A program made the translations under genes and the position numbers. Under the pieces are notes generated by a model, which was given only the letters and a program-made list of their open reading frames with translations, was not told where the DNA came from and did no database searches. DNA of 64,000 bases, taken from Microbacterium sp. CGR2. GTDB taxonomy: Bacteria; Actinomycetota; Actinomycetes; Actinomycetales; Microbacteriaceae. Shown here piece after piece: positions 29,466-51,341 of this stretch. Numbering within the stretch: position 1 is the first letter of the stretch; the number at the start of each line of letters is the position of its first letter. Location of the stretch: contig NZ_RBHX01000001.1 of NCBI RefSeq assembly GCF_003626735.1, positions 2,046,001 through 2,110,000 on the forward strand, written 5' to 3'.

Positions 29466-30962
29466 TCAGTTGTAGACGGCAACCTCGACGCCGACGGGCG
29501 ACCAGTCGTAGACGTACTTGGCCATGTCGATCGGCAGGTTCACGCACCCGTGGCTCATCGGGGTGCCGTAGTTGCTGTGCCAGTAGGTGCCGTGGAAGCC
29601 GATGTTCGTGGTGAACCAGGTGATCCATGGCACATCTTCGGTGCAGTAGGGCGCACCTTCGTAGCAGCCCATGTCCTGCATGTCGGTGTGCGCGAAGACC
29701 TTGAAGTTCCCGGTGGGTGTCGGGGTGCCGGGGAGCCCGGTGGAGACAGCCCAGGAGTTCACGACCTCGTTGTTCTCGAACAGGTAGGCGCGCTGGGATC
29801 CGAGGTCGATCTCGATCTTGCGGAACAGATTCACCGTCTCGAAGGGCGTCTCCGAAACCGGAACAGCGAAGACGCCGTCGCCCGCGGCGAGCTGCTGAGC
29901 GAACTCGTCAGCCACGCCGGACGTGTCGCCGACGGCGCGGCCGGTGACGCCGGCCTGTTCCGTGCGCAGAACGGTGCCGGCGGAGTCGACGATGTTCTTG
30001 GCGGTGACCGGTGCGCGGTCGACGGCACCGGGGAGAGCGTCGACGGTGCCCTGGATGGCCTGCGGATCGGCCTCGATGCGCAACTGGCCGCCGTCGTTGA
30101 CGATGGTGAGCCAGCTCGCGGCCACTGCAGGGGCGATGGGGACGACGCGCTCTTCGCCGACGTAGAAGCCGATGTTGCCGAGCATCGTGTTGACCGCCGC
30201 CACGGTGGCGGCGGCATCTTCGTCCGACACAGCGGCCGGAGCTTCGGCAGGGGCACCGGAGAACTCGAGTGTCTTCTCGCCGTCGGCGACCGCCTCGGTG
30301 AAGGCGGCGTTGAGCGCGACCACGTCGATCCCTGTGCCTGCCTCAGCCGGCGTGGCGACGTAGGTGGCCTTGGCGGTGTCGAAGACGACTCCGGCATCGA
30401 CCGGGTCGGAGAAGCTGGTCGGCACAGCGTCGCGGAGAGCGGCTGTCGCCTTGTCGACGTCGAGCGTGATGTCGGCGGCGACCGGCTCGCCCATCCAGGC
30501 GCCGAGGTTCCACATCGGGTCCGAGGCGAAGGCCTCGTCGGCGAGGGCCGACGCGTCGAGCGTGGCGCCGAGATCGGATCCGGTGAGGACGGTGCCGTCG
30601 CCTTCGCCCGTCAAGACGACCTCGGTCTCGGCGAGGTGCGCGCTGATGGCCTCTGCTGCCGCTCCAGGGGTCAGCCAGCCCACCGGGATGCCGGCGACGG
30701 TGGTGCCGGGAGCGATGAGGATGGTAGACGCTGCACCGGCGCCGAGGGCGAGCACGCCGACGCCGAGGCCGATCCACAAGCCCAGGCGACGCTTCTTCGG
30801 TGCGGGCTCGATGGGTGCCCAGGCGAGCGGCTGCTCGCCGGTGGTCGGCGGCATGGAGTCGGGGCCGGCACCGGACGGGGTCAGCACCGCGGTGGATGCG
30901 TCATCACCGTGTGCCTCATCTGCAGCGCCGCGCGCTGCGATCAGATCAGTCACGAACTTCAC
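29466..30962 (-). CDS. L,D-transpeptidase with YkuD domain
   Basis: 498-aa envelope enzyme that makes 3-3 peptidoglycan cross-links or attaches proteins. Residues 1-57 are cytoplasmic and include KKRR; one membrane anchor follows at ~60-85 (LGLWIGLGVGVLALGAGAAS). Two repeated peptidoglycan-binding-type domains fill ~90-350. The C-terminal YkuD domain carries FHGTYWHSNYGTPMSHGCVN, with catalytic Cys473 in SHGC. Start is GTG; a second GTG three codons on is possible. It lies after ridA on the same strand with a 96-bp gap and converges with icd. Confidence 0.94.
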   Translation of the reverse strand: MKFVTDLIAARGAADEAHGDDASTAVLTPSGAGPDSMPPTTGEQPLAWAPIEPAPKKRRLGLWIGLGVGVLALGAGAASTILIAPGTTVAGIPVGWLTPGAAAEAISAHLAETEVVLTGEGDGTVLTGSDLGATLDASALADEAFASDPMWNLGAWMGEPVAADITLDVDKATAALRDAVPTSFSDPVDAGVVFDTAKATYVATPAEAGTGIDVVALNAAFTEAVADGEKTLEFSGAPAEAPAAVSDEDAAATVAAVNTMLGNIGFYVGEERVVPIAPAVAASWLTIVNDGGQLRIEADPQAIQGTVDALPGAVDRAPVTAKNIVDSAGTVLRTEQAGVTGRAVGDTSGVADEFAQQLAAGDGVFAVPVSETPFETVNLFRKIEIDLGSQRAYLFENNEVVNSWAVSTGLPGTPTPTGNFKVFAHTDMQDMGCYEGAPYCTEDVPWITWFTTNIGFHGTYWHSNYGTPMSHGCVNLPIDMAKYVYDWSPVGVEVAVYN

Positions 30963-31058: not shown

Positions 31059-31463
31059 TCAGTCGATGACGGCGAGCCCGTCGATCTCGACGAGCATCTC
31101 TTCGCGGGGAAGCCCGGTGAAGACCGTGGTGCGGGAAGGCAGCACGCCGCTCGTCGTGTGCGCGTTCACGAAGGCGCCATAGGCGTCGTTCATGATCGGG
31201 AAGTCCTCACGCTTGGTCAGGTACACGCGAAGCATCACCACGTCGTCGAACGTCGCTCCGGATGCCTCGACGATCGCCTTCACGTTCTCCAGAGTGCGGG
31301 TGGTCTGCGCGGCGACATCGCCCGGGAACAGGTATTCATTGGTCTCGGGGTCGACGGGCCCCTGGCCGGAGACCTGCACGATCGGGCCCTTGCGGACACC
31401 CTGCGAGAAGGTGTGGGCGGGGGCGGGAGCGGCATCGGTGGAAACACGGGTCTTCGCGGTCAT
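31059..31463 (-). CDS. ridA: RidA family reactive enamine/imine deaminase
   Basis: 134-aa Rid protein that hydrolyses reactive 2-aminoacrylate-like intermediates made by PLP enzymes. Typical features are FSQGVRKGPIVQVSGQGPVDP, TRTLENVKAIVEASGAT and the substrate Arg in LPSRTTVFTGLP, ending EIDGLAV. It is divergent from the D-aminoacylase/GH20 fusion gene with 69 bp between. RidA genes often travel with D-amino-acid deacylase and deaminase genes, which supports D-amino acids as the common theme here (inference). A possible -10 TAGGCT only 6 bp before the ATG suggests a leaderless transcript. Confidence 0.92.
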   Translation of the reverse strand: MTAKTRVSTDAAPAPAHTFSQGVRKGPIVQVSGQGPVDPETNEYLFPGDVAAQTTRTLENVKAIVEASGATFDDVVMLRVYLTKREDFPIMNDAYGAFVNAHTTSGVLPSRTTVFTGLPREEMLVEIDGLAVID

Positions 31464-31481
31464 GTCTCCAGCCTAGTAGCG

Positions 31482-31501
31482 TTGTTAGATGCCTCTACAA
31501 A
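31482..31501. promoter_or_regulatory. Possible ROK-type operator between ridA and fusion gene
   Basis: TTGTTAG, 5 bp, then TCTACAAA. It shares TTGTTnG and TCTACnAA at the same spacing with the palindrome at 34860-34884 in front of the ROK repressor gene. It would let one repressor control ridA, the fusion and itself. The match is partial. Confidence 0.35.
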
Positions 31502-31532
31502 TTCCTCGGTCCGAGATCCGACCGGTCGCGAC

Positions 31533-34500
31533 ATGCTGCTGAGCGCTGAGAAAGCGAGCGCCGGTGGCGTCCGCGTGTACCGCCGCGCGACCGTGGTCGA
31601 CGGAACGGGACGGCCGCGCTACTGCGCCGATGTCGCTGTCGAGGGCGCTCGCATCGTCGCGGTCATCCAGGAGGCGGATGCGGATGCTTCCGCACAGCTG
31701 ACGCTCCCGGAGGGTGCCATCGAGGTCGACGCGACCGGGCTGGTGCTCGCGCCCGGATTCATCGACATGCACGCGCACAGCGATCTGGCCGTACTGCGCG
31801 GCAGTGATCATCAGGCGAAGATCAGGCAGGGCGTCACCACCGAGGTGCTGGGCCAGGACGGCCTCGGCTATGCGCCGCTCAGCGACGCGGCCGCACCCGT
31901 CATCGCCGCGCAGATCGCCGGCTGGAACGGGATGCCGGCCACGGCTCCGTGGCGCACGATGGATGACCTGCTCACGGCGATCGACGCCGCCACGGTCGCC
32001 AATGCGGCGGTGCTCGTGCCGCAGGGCAACCTCCGGATGATGGTGGTCGGCCACGAGAACCGCCCGGCGACTCCGACGGAGATCGCAGCGATGGGTGAAC
32101 TGCTCGGCGCGGCCCTCGACGCGGGGGCATTCGGGATGTCGAGCGGGCTGACCTACACGCCGGGCATGTATGCCGACGTCGCGGAGCTCGAAGCGCTCTG
32201 CCGAGTCGTCGCGGAGCGCGGTGGATACTGGGCCCCGCACACGCGCAGCTACGGCGGGGGAGCGCTGGCCGCGTACCGTGAGGCCCTCGACATCGGCCGG
32301 CGCACCGGCTGCCCTGTTCACCTCACCCACGCCACGATGAACTTCGCCCCGAATCGCGGGCGCTCGGGCGAACTGCTCGCGTTGATCGACGACGCGATCG
32401 CCGACGGGGTCGATGTGACGCTCGACACCTACCCGTACCTGCCGGGTGCGACGACCCTCGCCGCCCTGCTTCCGAGCAGACTCGCCGCCACCGGTGACCT
32501 GCTGCGCACACTCGCAGAGTTGGATGCCGCCGGACGCGAGGCCGTCCGGGTGGAACTCGAGGAGCTCGGCTGTGACGGATTCCATGGCGAGAAGGCCGAT
32601 TGGTCGGCGATTCAGATCTCCGGCACCGCGAACCCCGCGCTCGCCGACCTCGTCGGACGCACCATCGCCGAGATCGCCGCGAGCAGCGGACGCCGCGCAG
32701 TGGACGTGGTGCTCGACACGATCATCGCGGACGGCGGCGCCACCGGCATCCTGATGCACATCGGCGACGAGGACAACGTGCGTGCCATCATGCGCCACCC
32801 GCAGCACGCGGGCGGCAGCGACGGCATCCTGATCGGCGCACGACCGCATCCGCGAGGCAGTGGCACCTTCCCTCGATACCTCGGACACTACGTCCGCGAG
32901 CTGGGGATCCTCACACTCGAGGAAGCGGTGCGGCACCTGTCCGGGACCCCCGCGCGTCGGCTGGGTATCGACCGCGGCGACGCACCCCGTGGCGTCATCC
33001 GCCGAGGCGCGACGGCAGACCTCGTCGTGTTCGACCCGCAGACGATCGCCGCCGGCGCCACGTTCGATGTTCCGCGGGAGGCGCCGACCGGAATCGTGGA
33101 GGTGCTCGTCGCGGGGGTGCCGGTGATCTCCGATGGCGAGGTCACAGGTGCCACGCCCGGCGCGGCTCTGCGGATGCCACCTCCTCCGCATCGAGCCACC
33201 GTCCCACGCATCGATGCGCGCATCGACCCGGCCGCCCCCGGGTTCCTCTGGACCCCCCAGACGCCGATCGTCGCGTCCCCCGACCTCGCGGCGTCCGTGG
33301 CCCGCCTCGGTGGGGGAGGAGACAGTGAGGCACTGCGCCCGATCCGGCTTCTCGTCGACGAGAGCGTGGGCGGCGGCGGGGCGGATGCTGCGGAGGTGAG
33401 CGGCGAAGCCTTCCGGGTGACCGTCGCAGCCGACGGGATCGAGGTCAGGGGGCAGAGTCCGGCCGGTGTGTTCCGAGGCAGTTCGACGCTCCGGCAGCTG
33501 CGCGAGTCCGATGCGGGTGCTGCCCTCATTCCCGCGGGCGTCTGGGAAGGCGCACCGGCCTACACCTGGCGGGGGGTCATGATCGACGTGGCGCGCCATT
33601 TCCGCCCCGTCGAGGACATCCGTCGTCTCATCGACCTGCTCGCCGATCACCACCTCAACGTGCTGCACCTGCACCTGACCGACGATCAGGGCTGGCGCTT
33701 CGAAGTGCCCGGCTACCCGCGGCTGACCGAGATCGGTGCTCGTCGGGACGCGACGCAGCGCGGGCACGGTCCGCACGCGACCGTCGAACCGGGCGTGCAC
33801 GCGGGCTACTACACGACGCAGGAGCTCCGAGAGCTGGTCGCTTATGCCGCCGAGCGCTTCGTCACGCTCGTGCCGGAGGTGGAGCTGCCCGGCCACGTTC
33901 AGGCGGCGCTCGCCGCCTATCCGGAACTCGGCAATCTCGATGTCGGGGAACCGGCCGCAGCCCCCTGGGAGCGTTTCGGCGTGAACCCCCGAACGCTGGC
34001 TCCGACCGAGCGTGCGTTGGACTTCGGGCGAGCGGCGATCGACGCCCTGTGCGACGTGTTCGACTCGGAGTGGATCGGCATCGGCGGCGATGAGGTTCCC
34101 GTGACGGAGTGGTCCGAGAGCCGAGCGGCGGCGAAGCGGATGCAGGAGCTCGGACTGGCGGACCCCCACGATGTGCAGCCGTGGTTCACGGCGCACTTCG
34201 TCGCCCACGTGCGCAGCCGGGGTCGCACCGCGCTGGCGTGGGACGAGGTTCTCGAAGGCGTGGTCCCGGAGGGCGTGCGGGTTCTGGCGTGGCGTGGGCC
34301 CGTCGCGATGCGCGAGGCACTGCGACGCGGCATCCCCGTCATCGCATGCCCTGACCTGGAGGTGTATCTGGACTACCCGCAGTCGGAATCGGAGGAAGAG
34401 CCGATCAGGGTGGGTCCCCCCTTGAGCATCGAGCGGTCGTACACGCTCCGCGTCGAAGACGGTGCGGTCGGCGGTCAGGCGAATGTCTGGAGCGAGCACC

Positions 34501-34811
34501 TGCCCACCCGCGACCGGGTGGACTTCGTGATGTTCCCCCGGCTCGCCGCGATCGCGGAGCGTCTGTGGATCGGCGGCGATCCCGCGCCGTTCGCCGACTT
34601 CGCCCGTCGCCTGCCGACCCATCTCCGCCGCCTGCACGCCGCCGGGGTGCGGTATCGTCCCCTGGACGGACCCACGCCTGATCAGCGACGTCCGGGAGTT
34701 CCCGGAAAGCCCCTCACGCTCCAGGCGCGAGAGGAGATCGTGGCGCGGCTCGTGGCTCGCCTGGTGGCGCGCTCCGATCCGGCCGCGACGGGCTCGGTGG
34801 CAGTAAAGTAA
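31533..34811 (+). CDS. D-aminoacylase-type amidohydrolase fused to GH20 beta-N-acetylhexosaminidase
   Basis: 1092-aa two-enzyme fusion in one uninterrupted frame. Residues ~10-545 are an N-acyl-D-amino-acid deacylase-type amidohydrolase: metal site GFIDMHAHSD (His80, His82), later HLTHATMNFAPNRGR, and the family ending PRGSGTFPRYLGHYVRE. The usual Lys of HLKAAG is Thr-His here, so metal bridging may differ. Residues ~560-660 are a GH20b domain and ~675-1060 the GH20 barrel with TWRGVMIDVARHF, HLHLTDDQGWR and catalytic pair Asp853-Glu854 in GIGGDEVP. No signal peptide, so cytoplasmic. An internal ATG at 33174 begins the GH20 half but lacks a ribosome site. Followed by ROK repressor, ROK kinase and nagB. 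Confidence 0.9.
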   Translation: MLLSAEKASAGGVRVYRRATVVDGTGRPRYCADVAVEGARIVAVIQEADADASAQLTLPEGAIEVDATGLVLAPGFIDMHAHSDLAVLRGSDHQAKIRQGVTTEVLGQDGLGYAPLSDAAAPVIAAQIAGWNGMPATAPWRTMDDLLTAIDAATVANAAVLVPQGNLRMMVVGHENRPATPTEIAAMGELLGAALDAGAFGMSSGLTYTPGMYADVAELEALCRVVAERGGYWAPHTRSYGGGALAAYREALDIGRRTGCPVHLTHATMNFAPNRGRSGELLALIDDAIADGVDVTLDTYPYLPGATTLAALLPSRLAATGDLLRTLAELDAAGREAVRVELEELGCDGFHGEKADWSAIQISGTANPALADLVGRTIAEIAASSGRRAVDVVLDTIIADGGATGILMHIGDEDNVRAIMRHPQHAGGSDGILIGARPHPRGSGTFPRYLGHYVRELGILTLEEAVRHLSGTPARRLGIDRGDAPRGVIRRGATADLVVFDPQTIAAGATFDVPREAPTGIVEVLVAGVPVISDGEVTGATPGAALRMPPPPHRATVPRIDARIDPAAPGFLWTPQTPIVASPDLAASVARLGGGGDSEALRPIRLLVDESVGGGGADAAEVSGEAFRVTVAADGIEVRGQSPAGVFRGSSTLRQLRESDAGAALIPAGVWEGAPAYTWRGVMIDVARHFRPVEDIRRLIDLLADHHLNVLHLHLTDDQGWRFEVPGYPRLTEIGARRDATQRGHGPHATVEPGVHAGYYTTQELRELVAYAAERFVTLVPEVELPGHVQAALAAYPELGNLDVGEPAAAPWERFGVNPRTLAPTERALDFGRAAIDALCDVFDSEWIGIGGDEVPVTEWSESRAAAKRMQELGLADPHDVQPWFTAHFVAHVRSRGRTALAWDEVLEGVVPEGVRVLAWRGPVAMREALRRGIPVIACPDLEVYLDYPQSESEEEPIRVGPPLSIERSYTLRVEDGAVGGQANVWSEHLPTRDRVDFVMFPRLAAIAERLWIGGDPAPFADFARRLPTHLRRLHAAGVRYRPLDGPTPDQRRPGVPGKPLTLQAREEIVARLVARLVARSDPAATGSVAVK

Positions 34812-34885: not shown

Positions 34886-36073
34886 ATGTCCGTTTCGGGT
34901 GATCAGCGCTCCGCATCGCCGTCAGAGTATGGCGGCGTCAGCGCGCACGCCTTCGGACCCGGGCGCCATCTGCGATCACGGGCCAAAGTGCTCCCCGAGC
35001 ATGCCCGCGGCCACAACCGTGCGCTGGTGCTGCAGACCCTGTACCACGCAGGGGCGATGAGTCGCGCCGACCTCTCCCGCGAGACGGGCCTGACCCGCGT
35101 GACCATCTCCGACCTCGTCGCCGAGTTCATCGCCGACGGCATCGTCGTGGAGATGGGAGTCCGTGAGGCTGTCGGGCCGGGCAAGCCGCCCATCCTCATC
35201 GACATCGACCGCATCGGGCACCAGATCCTCGGCCTCGACCTTTCCGGGCCGACGGCGTTCGAGGGGGCAGTGCTCAGCCTCGACGGCGACGTCCTCGAAC
35301 GCCGCGAGGTGGCACGTCCGGACTCGACCGACGGCGACGCGGCCTACGCGGCCACGCTCGAGCTCGCCCGCAGCCTCGTCGCCGCATCCACCCAGCCGCT
35401 GCTGGGCGTCGGTATCGGCACCCCCGGAGTCGTCCGCCCTGACGGGCTGGTGCTCAGCTCACCCAACCTGGGCTGGACGAATCTGCCCCTCGAAGCGAAA
35501 CTCAGCATCGACCTCGACCTGCCGGTGCTGGCACGAAACGACGCCAACGCGGCAGTGCTCGCGGAGTACACCTTCGGCGACGCCAAAGCCGACTTCATGC
35601 TCATCAAACTGGGTCGAGGCGTCGGCGCCGGCATCATCACCGGCAGCCAACCGCTGCTGGGCAGTCGATTCGCGGCCGGGGAGATCGGCCACGTGGTCGT
35701 CGGAACCGACGGCGGACCAAAGTGCGCCTGCGGCAAGAACGGCTGTCTCGAAGCGTGGCTCAGCGTCAGCCGCATGCGCGAAGCGCTGGCCGCGGACCCC
35801 GACGCGCGCGACGAGATCCTCCGCGACTCCGGCACCCGCATGGCGATCGCGATCGCACCCATCGTCGCCGCGCTGGACCTGTCCGAGGTCGTGCTGTCGG
35901 GGCCGGCAGACCTGCTCGACGGGATCCTGATCGACGCGGCGATCGAGACACTGCACGCGCGCACCCTGGAGGGCGTCTTCGAGGATGTCATCGTGCGCCG
36001 CACCCACCAGGACGACATCGTGCTGCGAGGAGCCGCGGTGATGGTGCTCTCCGGACAGCTGGGAGTGTCGTGA
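34886..36073 (+). CDS. ROK family transcriptional repressor (NagC-like)
   Basis: 395 aa. The N-terminal winged helix spans ~45-100 (HNRALVLQTLYHAGAMSRADLS, GLTRVTISDLVAEFI). The ROK domain follows with GVGIGTPGVV, NDANAAVLAEY and the zinc-binding CACGKNGCLE near residue 280. Family members bind amino sugars or their phosphates and release DNA. Location inside a GlcNAc gene set and the operator over its own promoter suggest control by GlcNAc or GlcNAc-6-P. No ribosome site precedes the ATG, consistent with leaderless initiation. Confidence 0.93.
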   Translation: MSVSGDQRSASPSEYGGVSAHAFGPGRHLRSRAKVLPEHARGHNRALVLQTLYHAGAMSRADLSRETGLTRVTISDLVAEFIADGIVVEMGVREAVGPGKPPILIDIDRIGHQILGLDLSGPTAFEGAVLSLDGDVLERREVARPDSTDGDAAYAATLELARSLVAASTQPLLGVGIGTPGVVRPDGLVLSSPNLGWTNLPLEAKLSIDLDLPVLARNDANAAVLAEYTFGDAKADFMLIKLGRGVGAGIITGSQPLLGSRFAAGEIGHVVVGTDGGPKCACGKNGCLEAWLSVSRMREALAADPDARDEILRDSGTRMAIAIAPIVAALDLSEVVLSGPADLLDGILIDAAIETLHARTLEGVFEDVIVRRTHQDDIVLRGAAVMVLSGQLGVS

Positions 36074-36110: not shown

Positions 36111-37076
36111 ATGACGGCCATGGGTGCCGCCGACCGCGCCGGTCGGCAGATTCGAGTGGGCCTGGACGTCGGCGGCACCAAGATCGATGCCGTCGCCGTC
36201 GCTCCGGACGGCGAGATCCTCGGCCGCCTGCGCAGATCCACGGGCTGGGGCGAGGAAGCCGTCGTCGAGAGCATCGTGATGGCTGTCACCGCCCTTGCCG
36301 ACGAGACCGGCTTCCCGCTCGCGAGTGTCCGTTCCGTGGGCATCGGCATCCCCGGACTCGTCGATGCCGACACCGGCCGTGTCGACCACGCCGTGAACCT
36401 GGGCGTCGAGTCGCTCGAGCTCGCCGTTCGCGCGCAGGAGGCGCTCGGCGTGCCGTTCCGGGTGGAGAACGACGTCAAGGCCGCCGCTCTCGGCGCCGCC
36501 GTCCTGAGTGGTGTGTCGGGATCGATGGCCTACCTCAATCTCGGCACGGGCGTGGCGGCGGGCATCGTGATCGACGGACAGATCTGGCGCGGTTCCCGCG
36601 GCACCGCTGGCGAGGTCGGACATATCTCGGTCGACCCGCGCGGACGGCTCTGCGGCTGCGGGCAGCGCGGCTGCATCGAGACGTTCTGCGGCGGGGGCGC
36701 CGTCGCGAAGGCCTGGGGGAGACCCGGGGCCCTGCCCATCAGGGACATCTTCGATGCCGCCGACGAGGGCGATCCGGATGCTCTCGTGCTCCGCGACGAA
36801 CTGTACCGGGGCGCGGCCGCCGCGGTCCGCATCCTCGTACTCACGGCCGACGTCGAGACCGTCGTCATCGGGGGCGGACTCACCGCGCTCGGCGAACGAC
36901 TCGAGAACGGTATCCGGGCCGCGCTGCTCGCCGATGCCGAGGCGTCGCCGTTCATGCGCTCGTTGCACCTGGACCAGAGGATCGGCATGCTTCCCGCAGG
37001 CTCACCCGCCGCCGCATTCGGCGCCGCTCTCGTGGGCGCATCGCTATCAGAGAAGGAGATCGTCCCCCATGGCTGA
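36111..37076 (+). CDS. ROK family sugar kinase (probable N-acetylglucosamine kinase or glucokinase)
   Basis: 321-aa kinase without DNA-binding domain. ATP phosphate loop is GLDVGGTKIDAVAV; GIGIPGLVD and VENDVKAAALGA hold catalytic-site residues; zinc motif GRLCGCGQRGCIE. In context the substrate is most likely GlcNAc, giving GlcNAc-6-P for NagA, but glucose or N-acetylmannosamine cannot be excluded. Start ATG at 36111 with a second ATG three codons on. Its stop overlaps the nagB start by 8 bp. Confidence 0.9.
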   Translation: MTAMGAADRAGRQIRVGLDVGGTKIDAVAVAPDGEILGRLRRSTGWGEEAVVESIVMAVTALADETGFPLASVRSVGIGIPGLVDADTGRVDHAVNLGVESLELAVRAQEALGVPFRVENDVKAAALGAAVLSGVSGSMAYLNLGTGVAAGIVIDGQIWRGSRGTAGEVGHISVDPRGRLCGCGQRGCIETFCGGGAVAKAWGRPGALPIRDIFDAADEGDPDALVLRDELYRGAAAAVRILVLTADVETVVIGGGLTALGERLENGIRAALLADAEASPFMRSLHLDQRIGMLPAGSPAAAFGAALVGASLSEKEIVPHG

Positions 37077-37848
37077 GGTCGTCATCGTCGAGAACGCGGA
37101 TGCTGCAGGCGCGCTGGTCGCCACCGAGATCGTCGAGCTCATCGAACGGCGCCCCGACGCCGTCCTCGGGCTCGCCACCGGTTCGACACCGCTGCCGGTC
37201 TACCGGGCTCTGCGAACGCACCTCGCCGGCCGCGACGTCTCGCAGGTCCGCGGCTTCGCGCTCGACGAGTACGTCGGCCTCGACCCTGCGCACCCCGAGA
37301 GCTACCGGTCGGTCATCACCCGGGACGTCGTCGAGCCGCTCGGCCTCGACCCGCGGCGCATCCACGTCCCCAACGGGGCGGAGGAGACGATCCAACGTGC
37401 CGGTGACGACTACGAAGCCGCGATCTCGGCGGCCGGCGGCGTCGACCTGCAGATCCTGGGCATCGGCACCGACGGGCACATCGGGTTCAACGAGCCGGGG
37501 TCGTCCTTCGCCTCGCAGACGAGGGTCAAGACCCTCACGGAGCAGACTCGTGAAGACAACGCACGCTTCTTCGACTCGATCGACGACGTGCCGAAGCACT
37601 GCATCACGCAGGGACTCGGCACCATCCTGAAGGCGCGCCACCTCGTGCTGCTCGCGTTCGGCGAGGGGAAGGCGCAGGCGGTGGCGGATGCCGTCGAGGG
37701 CCCGCTGACCGCTTTCCTGCCCGGGTCGGCGATTCAACTGCATCCCCACGCCACGATCGTCGTCGACGAGGCAGCCGCCTCGCGGCTGCAGCTCGCGGAG
37801 TACTACCGGTACACCTTCGCCAACAAGCCGGCGTGGCAAGGGATCTGA
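37069..37848 (+). CDS. nagB: Glucosamine-6-phosphate deaminase
   Basis: 259-aa isomerase/deaminase that turns glucosamine-6-phosphate into fructose-6-phosphate and ammonia. LGLATGSTPLPVY binds phosphate; DEYVGL and GIGTDGHIGFNEPGSS carry the catalytic Asp, His and Glu. The ATG at 37069 has AGAAGGAG ahead and lies inside the 3' end of the kinase gene. It completes the pathway with the kinase here and nagA 5 kb away. It ends 9 bp from the convergent Nudix gene. Confidence 0.96.
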   Translation: MAEVVIVENADAAGALVATEIVELIERRPDAVLGLATGSTPLPVYRALRTHLAGRDVSQVRGFALDEYVGLDPAHPESYRSVITRDVVEPLGLDPRRIHVPNGAEETIQRAGDDYEAAISAAGGVDLQILGIGTDGHIGFNEPGSSFASQTRVKTLTEQTREDNARFFDSIDDVPKHCITQGLGTILKARHLVLLAFGEGKAQAVADAVEGPLTAFLPGSAIQLHPHATIVVDEAAASRLQLAEYYRYTFANKPAWQGI

Positions 37849-37857
37849 CGCCGCTTC

Positions 37858-38265
37858 TCAGCTCCGCGGAGTCGGCCAGGCGATCGGCAGCAGGTGCTCG
37901 GTGCTGAGCGGCGCCAAGGGCAGGTTCGCCGCATCGGCGGGCGTGATCCAACGCAGCTCCGCGAGCTCAGCCTGAGCGGTGGCCGATGCCGGATCGATGG
38001 TGGTCGCGAATGCTTCGGCGACGACGCGGTGGCCCGGCTCGTTCGCCGCGGCGGAGACGAACGTGCCCAGCGGGATCAGGTCTGCCTCGTCGACTTCCAG
38101 CCCCAGCTCCTCGTGCAGCTCACGGGTCAGCGTCTCGGCGGCGGTCTCCCCGGGCTCCGGCTTTCCCCCGGGCTGCATGAACCGGATGGTGCCGTGCTTG
38201 CGGACGACGAGGACGCGGCCTTCGTCGTCGACGATCACGGCGGCGCTCACATGGATGTCAGGCAT
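37858..38265 (-). CDS. Nudix hydrolase
   Basis: 135-aa phosphohydrolase. The full Nudix box is GGKPEPGETAAETLTRELHE followed by ELGL. The segment RKHGTIRFMQPGGKPEPGE resembles a group that cleans oxidised or non-canonical nucleotides, but specificity is open. The start MPDIHVSAAVI was chosen because it begins the conserved first strand; it overlaps the 3' end of the FAD oxidase gene by 8 bp, so the two are coupled. Confidence 0.9.
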   Translation of the reverse strand: MPDIHVSAAVIVDDEGRVLVVRKHGTIRFMQPGGKPEPGETAAETLTRELHEELGLEVDEADLIPLGTFVSAAANEPGHRVVAEAFATTIDPASATAQAELAELRWITPADAANLPLAPLSTEHLLPIAWPTPRS

Positions 38266-39622
38266 CGGGAACGAACACCTTCCCGGGGTTGAGGATGCCC
38301 AGAGGATCGAAGACCGCGGTGATCTCGCGCTGCAGGCGCCACTGGTCGTCACCGAGTTCGTCGGCGAGCCACCGGCGCTTCAGGACGCCGATGCCGTGTT
38401 CGCCGGTCAGGGTGCCGCCGAGCCGGATGGCCGCGCGGAAGAGCTCATCCGCCGCGGCCCACACAGGGGGCGGTGTCTCGGGTCCGTCGAAGATGAAGTT
38501 CGGGTGGAGGTTCCCGTCACCCGCGTGGGCGACGGTCGGGATGGTGAGGCCGTATTCGCGCTCGATGCGCGCGATCTCGTCGAACATCGCGGGCATCGCG
38601 CTGCGGGGCACCGACACGTCTTCGATGAGGGTCGTGCCCAATGCGGCCATCGCGGGGTGCATCGAGCGGCGGATGGCGAGCAGCCTCTCGCCTTCCTGAC
38701 GGTCGCGCGAGACGATCGTGACGCCCTCGTGGTCACGCAGGATGTCGGCGATCGTGTCGGCCTCTTCGAGGGCGGCGGGGCCATCGGTCTGAATGGTCAG
38801 CTGGGCCGTTCCCGGAGCGGGCGCCGGGAGAGCGAGGAGCGCGTGCACGGCGGCGAGACTGGCGGCATCCATCAACTCCATGATGGCCGGCTGCACGCCG
38901 GACGCGGTGACAGCGGCGGATGCTGCCGCTGCTGCCCGGACGCCCGGGAACGTGGCTGTAAGGGTGCACACATCCCCGGCGATGAGCCTGCGGAGCTTCA
39001 GGGTCGCCCCCACGACGACGCCCAGTGTTCCCTCTGAGCCGACGACCAGGGCGGTGAGGTCGAGCCCGGTCACGCCTTTGACGCTGCGATGGCCGAGATG
39101 CAGCAGCCGACCGTCGGCGAGCACGAGGTCGACGCCGAGTACGGCATCGCGGACGACGCCGTACTTCGCGCAGAGCAGGCCGCCAGCGCCCGTGGCGATG
39201 TTGCCACCGACGGTGGAGATGTCGCGGCTGGCCGGGTCGGGCGCCCACCAGACACCGTGCTCTGCCAGTTGAGATTTGAGGTCGGCGTTGAGGATGCCGG
39301 GCTCGACGACGGCGAGCAGGTCTTCGGGGCGCACTTCGCGCAGTGCGGTCATACGCCGCGTGGAGAGGACGATCTCGCCGGTGCCCGCATTGGCCGCCCC
39401 CGCCAAGCCGGTCCCGGCACCGCGGACCACGACGGGTGTGCGCGTGGACGTCGCGATGCGCATGGTCTGCTGCACGTGCTCGACGGTCTCCGCGTGAACG
39501 ATGGCGAGAGGACGCCCGACCGCCGCATGCCCGGAGCGGTCAGCGCGGGCCGCCTCGAGCGCCGCCTCGCTGACGTCGACGAGCGCGCCGAGTGCCTCCT
39601 GCAGCAGGGTCAGAGTGCTCAC
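38258..39622 (-). CDS. FAD-linked oxidase, GlcD/D-lactate dehydrogenase family
   Basis: 454-aa flavoenzyme of the PCMH family (glycolate oxidase GlcD, D-lactate dehydrogenase, D-2-hydroxyglutarate dehydrogenase). FAD contacts: PVVVRGAGTGLAGAANA, PASRDISTVGGNIATGAGG and GVTGLDLTALVVGSEGTLG. The C-terminal half has HAGDGNLHPNF and GGTLTGEHGIGVLKRRWL with catalytic His residues. D-lactate would be a logical substrate if muramic acid is recycled nearby, but no MurQ etherase is present, so this is speculative. It overlaps the Nudix gene and follows the DUF2568 gene by 38 bp. Confidence 0.93.
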   Translation of the reverse strand: MSTLTLLQEALGALVDVSEAALEAARADRSGHAAVGRPLAIVHAETVEHVQQTMRIATSTRTPVVVRGAGTGLAGAANAGTGEIVLSTRRMTALREVRPEDLLAVVEPGILNADLKSQLAEHGVWWAPDPASRDISTVGGNIATGAGGLLCAKYGVVRDAVLGVDLVLADGRLLHLGHRSVKGVTGLDLTALVVGSEGTLGVVVGATLKLRRLIAGDVCTLTATFPGVRAAAAASAAVTASGVQPAIMELMDAASLAAVHALLALPAPAPGTAQLTIQTDGPAALEEADTIADILRDHEGVTIVSRDRQEGERLLAIRRSMHPAMAALGTTLIEDVSVPRSAMPAMFDEIARIEREYGLTIPTVAHAGDGNLHPNFIFDGPETPPPVWAAADELFRAAIRLGGTLTGEHGIGVLKRRWLADELGDDQWRLQREITAVFDPLGILNPGKVFVPDA

Positions 39623-42675: not shown

Positions 42676-43848
42676 CTAGCCGAGCAGCCGTGGTCCCACC
42701 CATACGCGCGCGACGCGCAGTTCCGCATCCAACAGCACCGCGTCCCCGATCATCCCCGGGCTCAGCCGGCCGAGCGAGGCCTCGCGTCCGATGGCCCGCG
42801 CCGGCGTCTCTGTGACCGCCCGCACCGCCTCCGGCAGGCTTGCACCGGCCGCGACCGCCCGCTGCAGCGCCACATCCTGCGTCAGCGTCGAACCCGCGAT
42901 CGAGCCCGTCTGATCCGTTCGCGCGACGCCGTTCTCGACGGTGACGCTCACGGACCCGAGGTCGTAGTGACCGTCTTCGCTGCCGGCTGCGGCCATCGCG
43001 TCGGTGACCAGGGCCACCCGGCCGGGCGCGGAATCGAACAGCAGCTTGATGACGTGCGCGTCGAGGTGGACACCGTCCGCGATCGCCTCCAGGATGACGC
43101 GGTGGTCTGCTGCCGCCGCCAGTACCGGGCCGGGGGCGCGGTGGTGGATGCCGGGCATCGCGTTGAACGCATGAGTGAGGATCGAGGCGCCTGCATCGAA
43201 AGCGGCTTTCGCCGTGGCAGCATCCGCGTCGGTGTGCCCGACGGCGGCGGCAGCGCCGGCGGCCACGATCTGGCGCACGGCGTCGAGTCCGCCCGGCAGC
43301 TCGGGAGCGACCGTCACCTGGCGGATCGTGCCGCGCCCGGCCTCGAGAAGATGCGCGACATCGGCCGCGACCGGGGCTCTCAGCAGCGCCGGATCGTGCG
43401 CGCCCTGGTGTCCCGGGTCGAGGAATGGGCCTTCCAGGTGCGAGCCGAGGATGTCGGCATCTGTCTCCGTCAGGTCCGCGATGGCGGCGACGCTGCGCGC
43501 CAGATCGTCGATCGACGCGGTCACCAGGGAGATCACGGCGCGTGTCGTGCCGTGCGCGCGGTGCATCGCTCGTGCTGTGCGGATCGCCGCGGCGCCATCG
43601 TCGTATGACGCTCCGGCGCCGCCGTGTCCGTGGATGTCGATGAAACCGGGGGACAGGATGGCACCGGTGCCGGCGGCATCCTCAGCATCGACCACCTCGT
43701 CGGCCGGCGACCAGTCGGTGCCGACCCCGCGGGAGACGACCGCGCCGTCTTCGATACGGATCCACCCGTTCTCCGTGACCGACCCCTCGTCGACGATCCG
43801 CGCGGAGTGGATGACCAGCGAGCCGGCCTCCGAGGAGTGGATGCTCAT
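42676..43848 (-). CDS. nagA: N-acetylglucosamine-6-phosphate deacetylase
   Basis: 390-aa amidohydrolase that removes acetate from GlcNAc-6-P to give glucosamine-6-P for NagB. SPGFIDIHGHGGAGASYDD is the N-terminal metal motif, HLEGPFLDPGHQGAHD holds the metal Glu, HAFNAMPGIHHR the substrate His, and VTDAMAAAG the catalytic Asp. Its start overlaps the stop of the second GH20 gene by 4 bp, so hexosaminidase and deacetylase are made together. It is separated from kinase and nagB by the sigma-factor block. Confidence 0.95.
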   Translation of the reverse strand: MSIHSSEAGSLVIHSARIVDEGSVTENGWIRIEDGAVVSRGVGTDWSPADEVVDAEDAAGTGAILSPGFIDIHGHGGAGASYDDGAAAIRTARAMHRAHGTTRAVISLVTASIDDLARSVAAIADLTETDADILGSHLEGPFLDPGHQGAHDPALLRAPVAADVAHLLEAGRGTIRQVTVAPELPGGLDAVRQIVAAGAAAAVGHTDADAATAKAAFDAGASILTHAFNAMPGIHHRAPGPVLAAAADHRVILEAIADGVHLDAHVIKLLFDSAPGRVALVTDAMAAAGSEDGHYDLGSVSVTVENGVARTDQTGSIAGSTLTQDVALQRAVAAGASLPEAVRAVTETPARAIGREASLGRLSPGMIGDAVLLDAELRVARVWVGPRLLG

Positions 43849-45356
43849 CGTTCGCTCCAGGTGATCTCGGGGGCGGCGTGGAAGTCCACCCCTTCAGCCT
43901 TCCACAGGGGAGCGAGCGACCCCAGACGTGCTCGGAAGGACTCCCAGGTCCGCTCGGGCCCCTCTTTCGGCGACCAGGCGACCTCGGCCTGCGCGGCGGC
44001 ACGGGGGAAGACCATCTGCTCGACGTCGCGGAACGTGCGGGTGGTCTCGGACCACAGCGGGGCCTCGATACCGAGGATCGCGGTGTCCGGGACGTCGAGG
44101 ATCGCGGTCGGCTCCCACTGGTAGGCCGTGCGGACGTCGATGACGGCGGCCCACGTGAGGCCGAGAGGGAAGTCCGCGGTGTACTTCATGTCGAGGTACG
44201 TCACGTCCGCTGCGGACATGATCAGCGCGCCACCACGCTCGACGAAGTGCGCGGCCTCCTCCGCGTGCGTGCCGGAGGGCGTGGTCATTCCCCAGTACTG
44301 ACCCACCGTGCCCTCCGCGATCTGCGCGGCCGAGCCCATCTCGTGCCAGGCGATCGGCGTCTTGCCAGCCTCGACGACGATCGCGGTGGCGCGCTCGGCG
44401 AAGAGGTCGAAGTCGGCCTGCGGGGTGCCGAGCGACTCGTCGCCTCCGATGTGGATGTACGGTCCCGGGGTCATCTCCGCGAGCTCACGGATCACATCGC
44501 GGACGAAGTCGTACGTGCGCTCTTCGTGGATGCGCACACTGGAATGCCCCACGCCCCATCCCAGGTACGTCTCGCCGGCCACGGGCAGCGCCTGCCCGAG
44601 CCGGGCGGATTCGGTGACGAGTGAATCGTTCATGACCGGTGCCTCGACGAGCTCAGGGTAGGCGACGCCGATCGCGTGCGTGTGGCCGGGCAGGTCGATC
44701 TCGGGGATCACGACCATGTGTCGGGATGCCGCGTACGCCACGATCTCGCGATAGTCGTCCTTCGTATAGAAGCCGCCGGCGTCGCCGCCCGCCGACGTCG
44801 AGGACGAGAGCTCGGTGAGCAGCGGCCACGAGTCGATGTGCACTCGCCAGCCCTGGTCGTCACTGAGGTGCAGGTGCAGGTGGTTGAACTTCAGTGCACT
44901 CGTGGTGTCGATGAACTTCTTCACGGCGTCGACGCCGAAGAAGTGCCGCGCCACGTCGAGCATGACGCCGCGTCGTTCGAAGCGCGGGGCGTCCTGCACG
45001 TCCGCGCGAAGGATGCCCCAGCCGCTCTCGTCCTCGCGCAGGAGCTGCAGCAGGGTCTGCATGCCGTAGAAGAGGCCGGCTTCGTCGGCACCCGCGATGA
45101 CGACGCGGTCGTCGACCGTCAGGGTGTAGCCCTCGGGCGCGGCGACGGCGGGGTCCAGACGGAGCTCGATCTCGGCTGCACGCTCGTCGGATCGGGAGAG
45201 GCGGATGCCGGTGCGGCGCTCGACCGCCTCGATCAGCTGCGCGGTGGTGGCAGAGGTGCCGAGGACGCGGGTGGCCGTGGTGACCGGCATCCGCCCTTCC
45301 CCAACGGTGGCGGATGCGGGCGCGGGCACGAGCGGGAGGGAATGGGTAAAGACCAT
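43845..45356 (-). CDS. GH20 beta-N-acetylhexosaminidase (stand-alone)
   Basis: 503-aa cytoplasmic family 20 enzyme. The GH20b domain covers ~1-115 and the barrel ~120-480 with [31 protein letters not shown] and the catalytic pair in HIGGDESLG. It has the same domain order as the GH20 half of the fusion at 31533 but differs clearly in sequence, so the two are old paralogues. The ATG at 45356 lies 6 bp after a -10 box, suggesting leaderless translation. nagA follows with 4-bp overlap. Confidence 0.93.
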
Positions 45357-48556: not shown

Positions 48557-49357
48557 TCAATAGCTTTCGCGCTCCGCGTCGTCGGACACGATGAAGCGGG
48601 ACGCCAGGGCTTCGGATGCTCGGGCGAGCAGAGCCACGTCAGCACCGACCGCGACGAAGTCGGCCCCGGCGGCGAGGTAGGCGTCGGCGGCCCCAGGGTC
48701 GAACGCGTTAACCCCCACGGGTTTTCCGGCGGTCTTGACCGCGGCGAAGACACGCTCGACGGAGGCGACGACTTCCGGATGCGTCTGCCGTCCCAGAAGC
48801 CCCATCGACGCCGACAGGTCCGAGGGGCCGACGAACACGGCGTCCACGCCGTCGACGGCGGCGATGTCGGCGGCGGCATCCACACCGGCCACCGTCTCGA
48901 TCTGCACCGTCAGTGAGGTGTGGGTGGCGGCCTCCTGAAGGTAGCCCTCGACGCGATTCCACCGCGCGCTGCGGGCGAGTGCGCTTCCTACACCGCGCAC
49001 CCCTTCGGGCGGGTAACGGGTCGCCGCCACGGCCGCGCGAGCTTCTTCGGCGGACGACACCATGGGGACGATGAGGTTCTGCGCGCCGAGGTCGAGGACC
49101 TGCTTGATCGCGACGGCGTCGTTCGACGGCACGCGCACCACAGGAGTGATCGGGTAGGCGGCGACCGCCTGCAGCTGCAGAAGCACCGTCTCGAGCGTGT
49201 TCGCCGAGTGCTCCATGTCGATGAGCAGCCAGTCCAGTCCAGAGCCAGCGGCCACTTCGGTGACCAGGGCACTCCCCGAGCACGCCCACATGCCGACGAG
49301 GGCACGGTCGGACGCGGCCAGCCGCTCGCGGAAGGACGGGTCTAGACGAAGCGACAT
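48557..49357 (-). CDS. hpaI: HpcH/HpaI-type class II aldolase
   Basis: 266-aa metal-dependent aldolase for the last step of homoprotocatechuate breakdown: 4-hydroxy-2-oxoheptane-1,7-dioate to pyruvate and succinic semialdehyde. LLIDMEHSANTLETVLLQLQ, PVVRVPSND, QIETVAGVDAA and VFVGPSDLSASMGL are family motifs with the metal Glu and Asp. The chosen ATG overlaps the hydratase gene by 16 bp. Last gene of the hpa operon on this strand. Confidence 0.92.
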   Translation of the reverse strand: MSLRLDPSFRERLAASDRALVGMWACSGSALVTEVAAGSGLDWLLIDMEHSANTLETVLLQLQAVAAYPITPVVRVPSNDAVAIKQVLDLGAQNLIVPMVSSAEEARAAVAATRYPPEGVRGVGSALARSARWNRVEGYLQEAATHTSLTVQIETVAGVDAAADIAAVDGVDAVFVGPSDLSASMGLLGRQTHPEVVASVERVFAAVKTAGKPVGVNAFDPGAADAYLAAGADFVAVGADVALLARASEALASRFIVSDDAERESY

Positions 49358-50127
49358 GCGATTGTTCCCATCGGTCCGTAGTCGCACAGCACCTCGTCGC
49401 CGCGCGACACCCACATCGGGCGTGTGAACGATCCTGCCAGGATGATCTCGCCTGCTTCGAGACGCGCGCCGTGCTGGTGGAACTTGTTCGCCAGCCACGC
49501 CACGCCGGTGGCAGGGTGGCCGAGGACACCGGCCGCCACGCCCGTCTCTTCTATCTCGCCGTTGCGGGAGAGGACGCCGGGAACCCACCGAAGATCGATC
49601 TCGTCCGGGCGGCGGTGTTCGGAGCCCAGCACCATCGCCCCGTATGCGGCGTTGTCGCTGATGGTGTCGATGATCGTGCGCCCCTCGAGTTCGATGTGCG
49701 AATTCAGCACTTCGAGGGCCGGAACGGCGTAGTCGATCGCCGCGAGCGCATCGTCGAGCGTGCAGCCCGGGCCTTCGAGTGGATGCTTCAGCACGAAGGC
49801 GAGCTCCACCTCGATGCGGACGTTCGAGTAGTGATCGACCGGGATCTCGGCCCCGGACTCGTACACGGTGTCGTCGAACATCACCCCGTAATCGGGCTCG
49901 GTGATGCCTGTCGCCTGCTGCATCGCCTTGGATGTCAGGCCGATCTTGCGTCCGACGAGCCGGCGCCCTGCGGCGATCTGCGAATCACGCCAGACACCCT
50001 GGATCGCGTAGGAGTCCTCGACCGTGGCGTCGGGGTGGCGCGCGGTGATCCGTGGGATCACGCCGTGCGTGCGGTCGGCTTCCGCGAGTTCAGCGGCGAT
50101 CTGCGCAACGGTTTCCGGGGGCAGCAT
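49342..50127 (-). CDS. hpaH: 2-oxo-hept-4-ene-1,7-dioate hydratase
   Basis: 261-aa hydratase of the FAH-like/MhpD family that adds water to 2-oxohept-4-ene-1,7-dioate. YAIQGVWRDSQIAAGRRLVGRKIGLTSKA-type start region and VELAFVLKHPLEGPG, with metal-binding E-x-E (IEVELAF) and later GVLGHPATGVAWLANKF, match HpaH/HpcG. It precedes hpaI with overlap and follows hpaD after a 77-bp gap that holds a dispersed repeat (50156-50189). Confidence 0.92.
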   Translation of the reverse strand: MLPPETVAQIAAELAEADRTHGVIPRITARHPDATVEDSYAIQGVWRDSQIAAGRRLVGRKIGLTSKAMQQATGITEPDYGVMFDDTVYESGAEIPVDHYSNVRIEVELAFVLKHPLEGPGCTLDDALAAIDYAVPALEVLNSHIELEGRTIIDTISDNAAYGAMVLGSEHRRPDEIDLRWVPGVLSRNGEIEETGVAAGVLGHPATGVAWLANKFHQHGARLEAGEIILAGSFTRPMWVSRGDEVLCDYGPMGTIACRFV

Positions 50128-50155
50128 CCATGTCTCCGATCTTCAGGGGTGGGGC

Positions 50156-50189
50156 GTTTCGTCTCGCTGCGCTCGCTCAACGACCGGGT
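50156..50189. repeat. REP-like dispersed repeat, copy A
   Basis: The 34-bp unit begins GTTTCGTCTCGCTGCGCTCG and ends CGACCGGGT. A second copy inside the FAH-RraA gene (54319-54352) agrees at 28 of 34 bases, and 14 bases recur in reverse orientation at 29393-29406. The unit contains GCGAG/CTCGC inverted bits. It sits between hpaD and hpaH. Confidence 0.65.
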
Positions 50190-50204
50190 GGTGTGGTGGG
50201 GTGT

Positions 50205-51341
50205 TCAAAGCTGGTTGCCGAGCTTCTTCTCGCCGTCGTCCGGTCGAGTGTAGGAGAAGCCGTCGGCTCCGATGGTCACGGCCATCTCGCTGGAATCGGA
50301 CCGGGCGACCACCGGTTGGGGGTTCCCGTCGAGGTCGAGCACGAGCGACGCCTCGGTGTACCACGACGGCACGACGGGGTTGCCCCACCAGTCGCGGCGC
50401 TGGTTGTCGTGGACGTCCCAGGTGATGACCGGGTTGTCAGGGTCACCCGTGTAATAGTCCTGCGTGTACACCTCGACACGGTGCCCGTCCGGGTCGCGCA
50501 GGTACAGGTAGAAGGCGTTCGAGACGCCGTGGCGACCCGGGCCCCGCTCGATCGCGTCGGAGCGTCGCAGCGCGCCGAGCTTGTCGCAGATCGCGAGGAT
50601 GTTGTGCTTCTCGTGCGTGGCGAAGCAGACATGGTGCATGCGCGGCCCATCGCCACCTGTCATCGCGGTGTCGTGCACCGTGGGCTTGCGCCGCATCCAT
50701 GCCGCGTAGACCGTGCCCTCGTCGTCCTGGATGTCCTCCGTCACGCGGAAGCCGAGGTCTTGCATGAACTTCACGGCGCGCGGCACGTCAGGGGTGACCT
50801 GGTTGAAGTGGTCGAGGCGCACCAGCTCCCCGGGGATGTGCAGGTCATAGCGCCAGGACATGCGTTCGACGTGGTCGGCCTGGTGGAAGAACTCGTAGGG
50901 GAAGCCGAGGGGGTCGACGACACGCACCGAGTCGCCGATGCCCTTGACGAAGCCGTCGGGGCTGCGTCGCACGTCGCATCCGAGCTCCGTGTAGAACTCG
51001 ACGGCACGATCGAGGTCCTCGGGCGCGCGCACGCGGTAGGAGAAGGCGGCGACCGCGGCGAGGGGGCCCTTGCGCAGCACCAGATTGTGGTGGATGAACT
51101 CCTCGGTCGAGCGCAGGTAGATCGCCTCGTCGTCCTCCTCGGTGACATACAGACCGAGAACGTCGACATAGAACTGCCGGGACGCGGCCAGGTCGGTGAC
51201 GACGAGCTCCATGTAGGCGCAGCGGAGGATGTCCGGCGGCGAGCTCTCGGGAGTGGTGACCGGGTTGTCCGAGCGGATCGGCGCCTCCTGAGACACGTAG
51301 TATCCGGCCGAGGTGAGGGTCATGTCTTCGCGGTGGGTCAT
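50205..51341 (-). CDS. hpaD: 3,4-dihydroxyphenylacetate 2,3-dioxygenase
   Basis: 378-aa extradiol ring-cleavage enzyme of the VOC superfamily (two tandem modules), similar to the homoprotocatechuate dioxygenases of Brevibacterium and Arthrobacter. Metal ligands are recognisable: His in RLDHFNQV, His in RMHHVCFATHEKHN and Glu in HRVEVYTQDY. DLRCAYMELVVTDL-type start follows a polar leader. Product is 5-carboxymethyl-2-hydroxymuconate semialdehyde, the substrate of HpaE coded just upstream. The 91-bp gap to hpaE holds a large palindrome. Confidence 0.93.
   Translation of the reverse strand: MTHREDMTLTSAGYYVSQEAPIRSDNPVTTPESSPPDILRCAYMELVVTDLAASRQFYVDVLGLYVTEEDDEAIYLRSTEEFIHHNLVLRKGPLAAVAAFSYRVRAPEDLDRAVEFYTELGCDVRRSPDGFVKGIGDSVRVVDPLGFPYEFFHQADHVERMSWRYDLHIPGELVRLDHFNQVTPDVPRAVKFMQDLGFRVTEDIQDDEGTVYAAWMRRKPTVHDTAMTGGDGPRMHHVCFATHEKHNILAICDKLGALRRSDAIERGPGRHGVSNAFYLYLRDPDGHRVEVYTQDYYTGDPDNPVITWDVHDNQRRDWWGNPVVPSWYTEASLVLDLDGNPQPVVARSDSSEMAVTIGADGFSYTRPDDGEKKLGNQL

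Follow-up and report, generated by a model that had tools for sequence, protein, structure and literature searches.

The stretch analysed here (the window) comprised 64,000 nt of Microbacterium sp. CGR2, positions 2,046,001 to 2,110,000 of contig NZ_RBHX01000001.1, from a genome of 3.97 Mb. At nt 31533–34811 on the plus strand, it contained a gene in which a D-aminoacylase-type amidohydrolase is joined to a GH20 beta-N-acetylhexosaminidase; the translation was 1092 aa long with zero internal stops and a single terminal one, and had full-length homologues. The N-terminal half (residues 1–547, nt 31533–33173, plus strand) possessed the Pfam domain Amidohydro_3 at residues 64–531 (E 3e-30), and an AlphaFold2 model of residues 1–552 (pLDDT 90.3, pTM 0.92) had the subtype-V fold. 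The C-terminal half possessed, on the same strand, GH20 domain 2 (PF02838; residues 571–668, nt 33243–33536, E 2.3e-7) and the GH20 catalytic domain (PF00728; residues 677–1012, nt 33561–34568, E 2.3e-90), both above cut-off, and the catalytic pair Asp853-Glu854 (nt 34089–34094). By these domains and this pair it is a GH20 protein, and hexosaminidase activity is predicted. Its top sequence match in the PDB was Arthrobacter aurescens 3rcn (E 1.2e-109), which has the same catalytic domain with the Asp-Glu pair but is a stand-alone enzyme. The AlphaFold2 model of the whole fusion was weak (pLDDT 70.5, pTM 0.54, 22 rows) and its structure matches were to GH20 only; it was left out of any reading of the domain arrangement. 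An earlier, sequence-only reading had described one 1092-aa frame joining a deacylase-type amidohydrolase to a full GH20 enzyme in an amino-sugar operon, and the Pfam domains, the uninterrupted frame and the operon partners given below bear this out.

The joining of the amidohydrolase to GH20 is genuine and recurrent. Among 119 sampled genomes of the genus, 31 had a match at E <= 1e-100; G025, G040 and G110, matching via a separate GH20 or unfused genes only, were excluded, leaving 28 genomes referred to as fusion-type and 91 others. Both halves were present in 25 of the 119, that is, in 25 of the 28 fusion-type genomes. The amidohydrolase half was lost or decayed in G070 and G075, G114 (locus L015) kept the deacylase and lost GH20, and the match in G022, one of the 25, ended early, at residue 1009. 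G065, another of the 25, had its halves on two contigs that break where they would meet, and a fusion is presumed in this case. A single open frame with both halves was observed in L016–L023, L048, L074 and most full-length matches of the genus; homologues always split near residue 547, the outcome named as counting against the fusion, were not what was found. Assembly error was ruled out because single-frame fusions recur across independent assemblies. In a search at family level (398 genomes, E <= 1e-150, scoring up to two candidates in each), matches over both halves came from Microbacterium only, and other genera matched through the N-terminal half alone. All 120 matches listed for the full query contained both domains, this set being score-ranked and so not a frequency. 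One sequence labelled Streptomyces sp. AC495_CC817 (P0246) had a GH20 sharing 74% identity with the Microbacterium half; the genome may be mislabelled. The earlier claim that no enzyme with this pairing had been described agrees with searches of open-licence papers, which turned up none about the fusion or about an ong pathway in actinobacteria (see below), but fusion sequences can already be found in public databases, labelled for example 'family 20 glycosylhydrolase'.

The deacylase active site was compared across 264 sequences, 129 of the fused set and 135 others, with AfDam (1m7j, D-aminoacylase), BbDam (3gip, N-acyl-D-glutamate deacylase) and PpOngB, a characterised deacetylase of N-acetyl-D-glucosaminate (GlcNAc1A; PDB 9kb1, 9kb3; PMC12017989). 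The N-terminal half was 38–39% identical to AfDam and BbDam in structural alignment and had the fold and most catalytic residues in common with them, but those enzymes are unfused and carry Cys and Lys where it carries Asp and Thr. His80 and His82 (nt 31770–31778, plus strand as for all residues below; AfDam His67/His69) were kept in 129/129 fused-set and 135/135 other sequences; His236 (nt 32238–32240), at the position of the metal ligand His of AfDam (His220) and PpOngB (His222), and Asp430 (nt 32820–32822), at that of their catalytic Asp (AfDam Asp366, PpOngB Asp368), were kept in 264/264. The zinc-ligand Cys (AfDam Cys96, PpOngB Cys97), a metal ligand of the subtype-V site (PMC12017989), was replaced by Asp in all 264 (Asp109 in a GQDG motif, nt 31857–31859). 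In the alignment, His266-Ala267-Thr268 (nt 32328–32336) retained the metal-ligand His, with Thr in place of the carboxylate-binding Lys (AfDam Lys252, PpOngB Lys254), a position at which Thr occurred in 260 of 264, Val in 3 and His in 1. The missing HLKAAG lysine had been noticed from the letters of the sequence and the replacement of Cys96 goes beyond it; the altered deacylase chemistry then suspected is likely. Thus, the Cys ligand and Lys anchor of D-aminoacylase subtype V, as in AfDam and BbDam, were both absent.

As to OngB, both His of its metal site (Cys97-His222-His252) were present with Asp for the Cys, and of its carboxylate anchors (Lys254, Tyr285, Arg379) the equivalents Tyr300 and Arg441 were kept, with Thr268 for the Lys. 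On the polyol side, Glu226, Ser290 and Ser292 corresponded to Tyr240, Gly305 and Thr307, the position of Gln298 lying outside the confident alignment. In the tree, OngB-like proteins clustered with AfDam and BbDam (100/98) and the actinobacterial clade stood apart (95/87), with three long branches; the deacylase half of the fusion fell outside the OngB clade. A structure search with the N-terminal half gave tied Z values for OngB and D-aminoacylase, hence no discrimination. Metal ligand, anchor lysine and tree position all place the deacylase half outside the OngB family. A haloarchaeal deacylase on a Natrononativus plasmid (L123) had the GQDG Asp with the Lys retained; it was encoded among Gfo/Idh/MocA oxidoreductases, with GH20 about 4 kb away.

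Replacement of the Cys ligand and the carboxylate Lys might alternatively reflect loss of function, only the GH20 half mattering and the amidohydrolase being inactive or a structural appendage. In many relatives the N-terminal half was indeed shortened or gone with the GH20 residues intact, at three or more places in the tree. In a comparison of the fusion with 171 proteins, 129 of them kept the seven checked deacylase residues and most of GH20; the remaining 42, a count that includes short contig-end proteins and is not a rate, were unfused, truncated or devoid of some or all deacylase residues, the GH20 residues that they covered being intact. An amidohydrolase half shortened or without catalytic residues beside an intact GH20 was found in L013, L014, P0248–P0252, P0254–P0256, P0258–P0261, P0263 and P0272–P0274, and the shortened halves had at least three separate origins in the tree. 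However, His80, His82, Asp109, His236, His266, Asp430 and Arg441 were invariant in the 129 fused-set sequences, G114 retained the deacylase after losing GH20, and the replacements were common to unfused, operon-borne enzymes (Asp in 135/135), which makes them the mark of a subtype rather than of decay. An inactive amidohydrolase is therefore regarded as quite improbable. On the GH20 side, Asp853-Glu854 was retained in 128 of 129 intact fusions, the exception (P0040) having Ala at 854. The basidiomycete yeasts Vanrija albida and V. pseudolonga (P0265, P0266) also had a GH20 of the Microbacterium type with a remnant of the amidohydrolase half, on contigs of 2.5–2.7 Mb and nested inside the bacterial clade; horizontal transfer is the probable source of these copies.

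The neighbours expected from the sequence-only reading, a divergent RidA, a repressor, a ROK kinase and nagB, were located by profile matches. The RidA-family protein (nt 31059–31463, minus strand; TIGR00004 92.8 bits, below the cut-off of 106.25) is OngD-like by position only. Downstream on the plus strand followed a ROK-family protein, probably a NagC-like repressor (nt 34886–36073, start possibly 34988, with a weak MarR-like N-terminus below cut-off); a ROK-family kinase identified by its ROK match (nt 36111–37076), probably specific for N-acetylglucosamine (GlcNAc); and nagB, encoding glucosamine-6-phosphate deaminase (nt 37066–37848; TIGR00502 241.1 bits, cut-off 236.9). On the minus strand, 4.8 kb past nagB, lay nagA, encoding GlcNAc-6-phosphate deacetylase (nt 42676–43848; TIGR00221 231.6 bits, cut-off 225.65), and a second, unfused GH20 gene (nt 43845–45290) whose product was only distantly similar to the fused one (32%) in sequence comparison. 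Two flanks were conserved among the fused loci compared, a YkuD L,D-transpeptidase gene (nt 29466–30962; 9/9) and a gene for a GlcD-like flavin-dependent (FAD) oxidase, below the cut-off of that model (nt 38258–39622; 8/9). As to a kinase for 2-keto-3-deoxygluconate (KDG), no PfkB protein was detected in L016–L023 and none was called in the window operon. In the fused loci L017 and L018, genes for the binding protein and permeases of a sugar-type ABC transporter separated the ROK kinase gene from that of the ROK regulator. Farther along the window, nt 48557–51341 carried HpcH/HpaI aldolase, FAA hydrolase and ring-cleavage dioxygenase-type genes, resembling an aromatic-acid degradation cluster.

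Unfused relatives supplied further context. Named actinobacterial loci, the best 80 of 366 confirmed, were surveyed over up to 10 kb per side where the contig allowed, neighbour families being counted with profiles built from the first loci. PF14031-type genes were found in 74 of the 80, RidA in 70, IclR in 63, PfkB in 60, a GntP-family symporter in 45, aldolase for 2-keto-3-deoxy-6-phosphogluconate (KDPG) in 21 and GH20 in 10, two of the last being fused; PF14031, RidA and PfkB occurred together in 55, and other frequent neighbours were mostly unrelated flanks in a Pfam scan. A Tsukamurella plasmid carried, by RefSeq annotation, a matching gene set plus a gluconate:H+ symporter. In the closely related loci L012, L060 and L063 a separate GH20 gene lay within 0.8 kb of the deacylase gene, and the pairing thus occurs unfused too. 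In L035 (G151), an unfused deacylase and a PF14031-type gene adjoined a weak GH20-like gene and an alpha-L-fucosidase gene.

Of the 25 genomes with both halves, 20 had PF14031 next to the fusion; it lay elsewhere in G000 (the genome of the window), G014, G021, G095 and G107, the last a fragmented assembly. The sole match in the genome of the window (G000:C1:505647) was 1.6 Mb from the fusion, in a cluster (L025, G000:C1:495000-514500) encoding an unfused deacylase (37% to the N-terminal half, with GQDG), PF14031, RidA, IclR, PfkB and KDPG aldolase and adjoining galactose genes and genes for transporters of the major facilitator superfamily. As this cluster carries the only PF14031 of the genome, later steps of a route would be encoded outside the fused operon.

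Such neighbours bear on the possibility that ordinary N-acyl-D-amino acids or D-dipeptide ends are the substrates of the amidohydrolase half, and their GlcNAc conjugates those of GH20, with PF14031 and RidA deaminating a normal D-amino acid. Apart from OngB, the closest characterised relatives are D-aminoacylases; PfkB and KDPG aldolase both went undetected in 15 of the 74 named PF14031 loci; and an Azospirillum locus had D-aminoacylase, RidA and 'alanine racemase' genes by those of an oligopeptide ABC transporter. The Azospirillum protein, however, had a Cys-type site and fell outside the actinobacterial clade; the fusion is accompanied by GH20 and nag genes; and a kinase, KDPG aldolase and gluconate symporter near the deacylase and deaminase, at the frequencies given above, accord better with a 2-acetamido-2-deoxy-aldonate than with a normal D-amino acid, which leaves this alternative rather unlikely.

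The ong cluster of Pseudoalteromonas prydzensis encodes OngA, a GH20 enzyme cleaving GlcNAc-GlcNAc1A; OngB, a D-aminoacylase-like GlcNAc1A deacetylase; OngC, a deaminase of D-glucosaminate (GlcN1A) yielding KDG; and the RidA protein OngD, a KDG kinase (KdgK) and a regulator (PMC9537276). Paraglaciecola hydrolytica has a comparable operon, the GH20 of which has been characterised (PMC7014002), the ong set is annotated together on a plasmid record of Pseudoalteromonas shioyasakiensis (L124), and OngB and OngC are given as not clearly found in Aeromonas in the relevant text of PMC11653859. A haloarchaeal glucosaminate route is different, predicted and via a CE14 esterase, and the passages describing it name no D-aminoacylase (PMC12343721). 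The actinobacterial loci resemble the ong cluster in the co-occurrence of GH20, a D-aminoacylase-type deacetylase, a D-amino acid deaminase family, RidA and a sugar kinase; at nt 31059–34811 of the window, GH20, the deacetylase-type half and RidA share one locus as in that cluster. OngA and OngB are separate proteins, whereas in Microbacterium the OngA-type and OngB-type steps are fused; OngA is predicted to be periplasmic (PMC9537276), whereas no signal peptide was seen by eye in the fusion; the regulators are ROK or IclR rather than MurR/RpiR; and the deacylase differs from OngB in lineage and in the metal-site residue.

By analogy with the ong pathway, the fusion is probably a bifunctional enzyme for oxidised chitobiose, combining an OngA-like and an OngB-like step in one protein that may be cytosolic. 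The GH20 half would act on a C1-oxidised chitooligosaccharide, in the simplest case GlcNAc-GlcNAc1A (chitobionate), and take off its non-reducing GlcNAc; the amidohydrolase half, as the operon context suggests, would deacetylate the released GlcNAc1A, passed on from the other half, to GlcN1A, with the metal probably held by His236, His266 and Asp109 and Asp430 serving as base and acid. GlcNAc would be processed by the ROK kinase, NagA and NagB. GlcN1A would be converted to KDG by the PF14031 pyridoxal phosphate enzyme aided by RidA, and then by the kinase and KDPG aldolase, steps that in the genome of the window may be supplied from the second, unfused cluster. GlcNAc1A is itself an N-acetylated D-configured 2-amino acid, and in this respect the earlier idea of a substrate with both a beta-GlcNAc and an N-acyl-D-amino acid is supported.

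Several observations weigh against this function. The window RidA had no blastp match to P. shioyasakiensis OngD at E 1e-3, the KdgK of that species matched two actinobacterial PfkB proteins weakly, PF14031 is absent from the window locus, and two PF14031 proteins scored far under the cut-off of their sole NCBIfam match, 3-hydroxy-D-aspartate aldolase. To these are added, from above, the replaced Cys and Lys of the OngB site, the place of the deacylase half outside the OngB clade, the repeated shortening of that half, the PF14031 loci with neither PfkB nor KDPG aldolase detected, and the Azospirillum locus. In the genome of the window no AA10 lytic polysaccharide monooxygenase (LPMO) and no strong GH18 match were found, only one weak GH18 match; across the genus AA10 occurred in 5 of 119 genomes (4/28 fusion-type and 1/91 others), and strong GH18 matches, defined in this analysis as E below 1e-60, in 3/28 versus 11/91, showing no association. 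The same chemistry might thus serve GlcNAc-aldonate or GlcNAc1A of another origin than LPMO action, e.g. from sugar oxidases or other organisms; the haloarchaeal GQDG-type deacylase among oxidoreductases with GH20 nearby speaks for such an origin. It is considered unlikely, though a serious alternative: nothing in the fused operons was recognised as a sugar oxidase, the genome not having been searched for oxidases, and the nearby FAD oxidase is GlcD-like and below the model cut-off.

Genus-wide co-occurrence also has to be set against the proposed chitobionate function. PF14031 was present in 28/28 fusion-type genomes versus 22/91 others, and MurQ above its cut-off was as strong (27/28 versus 23/91); since this control comes close to PF14031, co-occurrence across the genus is confounded by kinship, and adjacency was relied on instead. 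Muropeptides, with GH20 taking GlcNAc off peptides of GlcNAc linked to N-acetylmuramic acid (MurNAc) and the deacylase half cutting the N-acyl-D-amino acid, had been put forward as the best fit, to which the MurQ counts and the conserved YkuD flank would be suited. Yet MurQ, the only MurNAc gene looked at, lay about 71 kb from the fusion and outside the operon in the genome of the window, and the counts carry the kinship just described. The unfused relatives occur in aldonate-type clusters, and since PF14031, RidA, PfkB, KDPG aldolase and GntP are the set expected for an amino-aldonate, these and the ong-like gene set fit better, making a muropeptide enzyme very improbable.

A broader picture, to which we would give somewhat less than an even chance, is that of a widespread, apparently unreported actinobacterial pathway for 2-acetamido-2-deoxy-aldonates, with its own Asp-for-Cys, Lys-less deacetylase that evolved separately from OngB, was fused in Microbacterium to the upstream GH20 as a two-step chitobionate enzyme, and in some lineages is eroding to GH20 plus a structural appendage that also reached yeasts. 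The complete oxidative chitin pathway is reported in PMC9537276 from Gammaproteobacteria and one betaproteobacterium; if the picture holds, this route, reported there almost only from Gammaproteobacteria, would have a second home in actinobacteria, a large protein group now named 'N-acyl-D-amino-acid deacylase' would gain a function, and the production or measurement of oxidised chitin products would have a ready enzyme. The Asp-for-Cys site poses a testable question of metal binding in the amidohydrolase superfamily, and the decay stages of one half offer a natural series of an enzyme domain becoming a scaffold.

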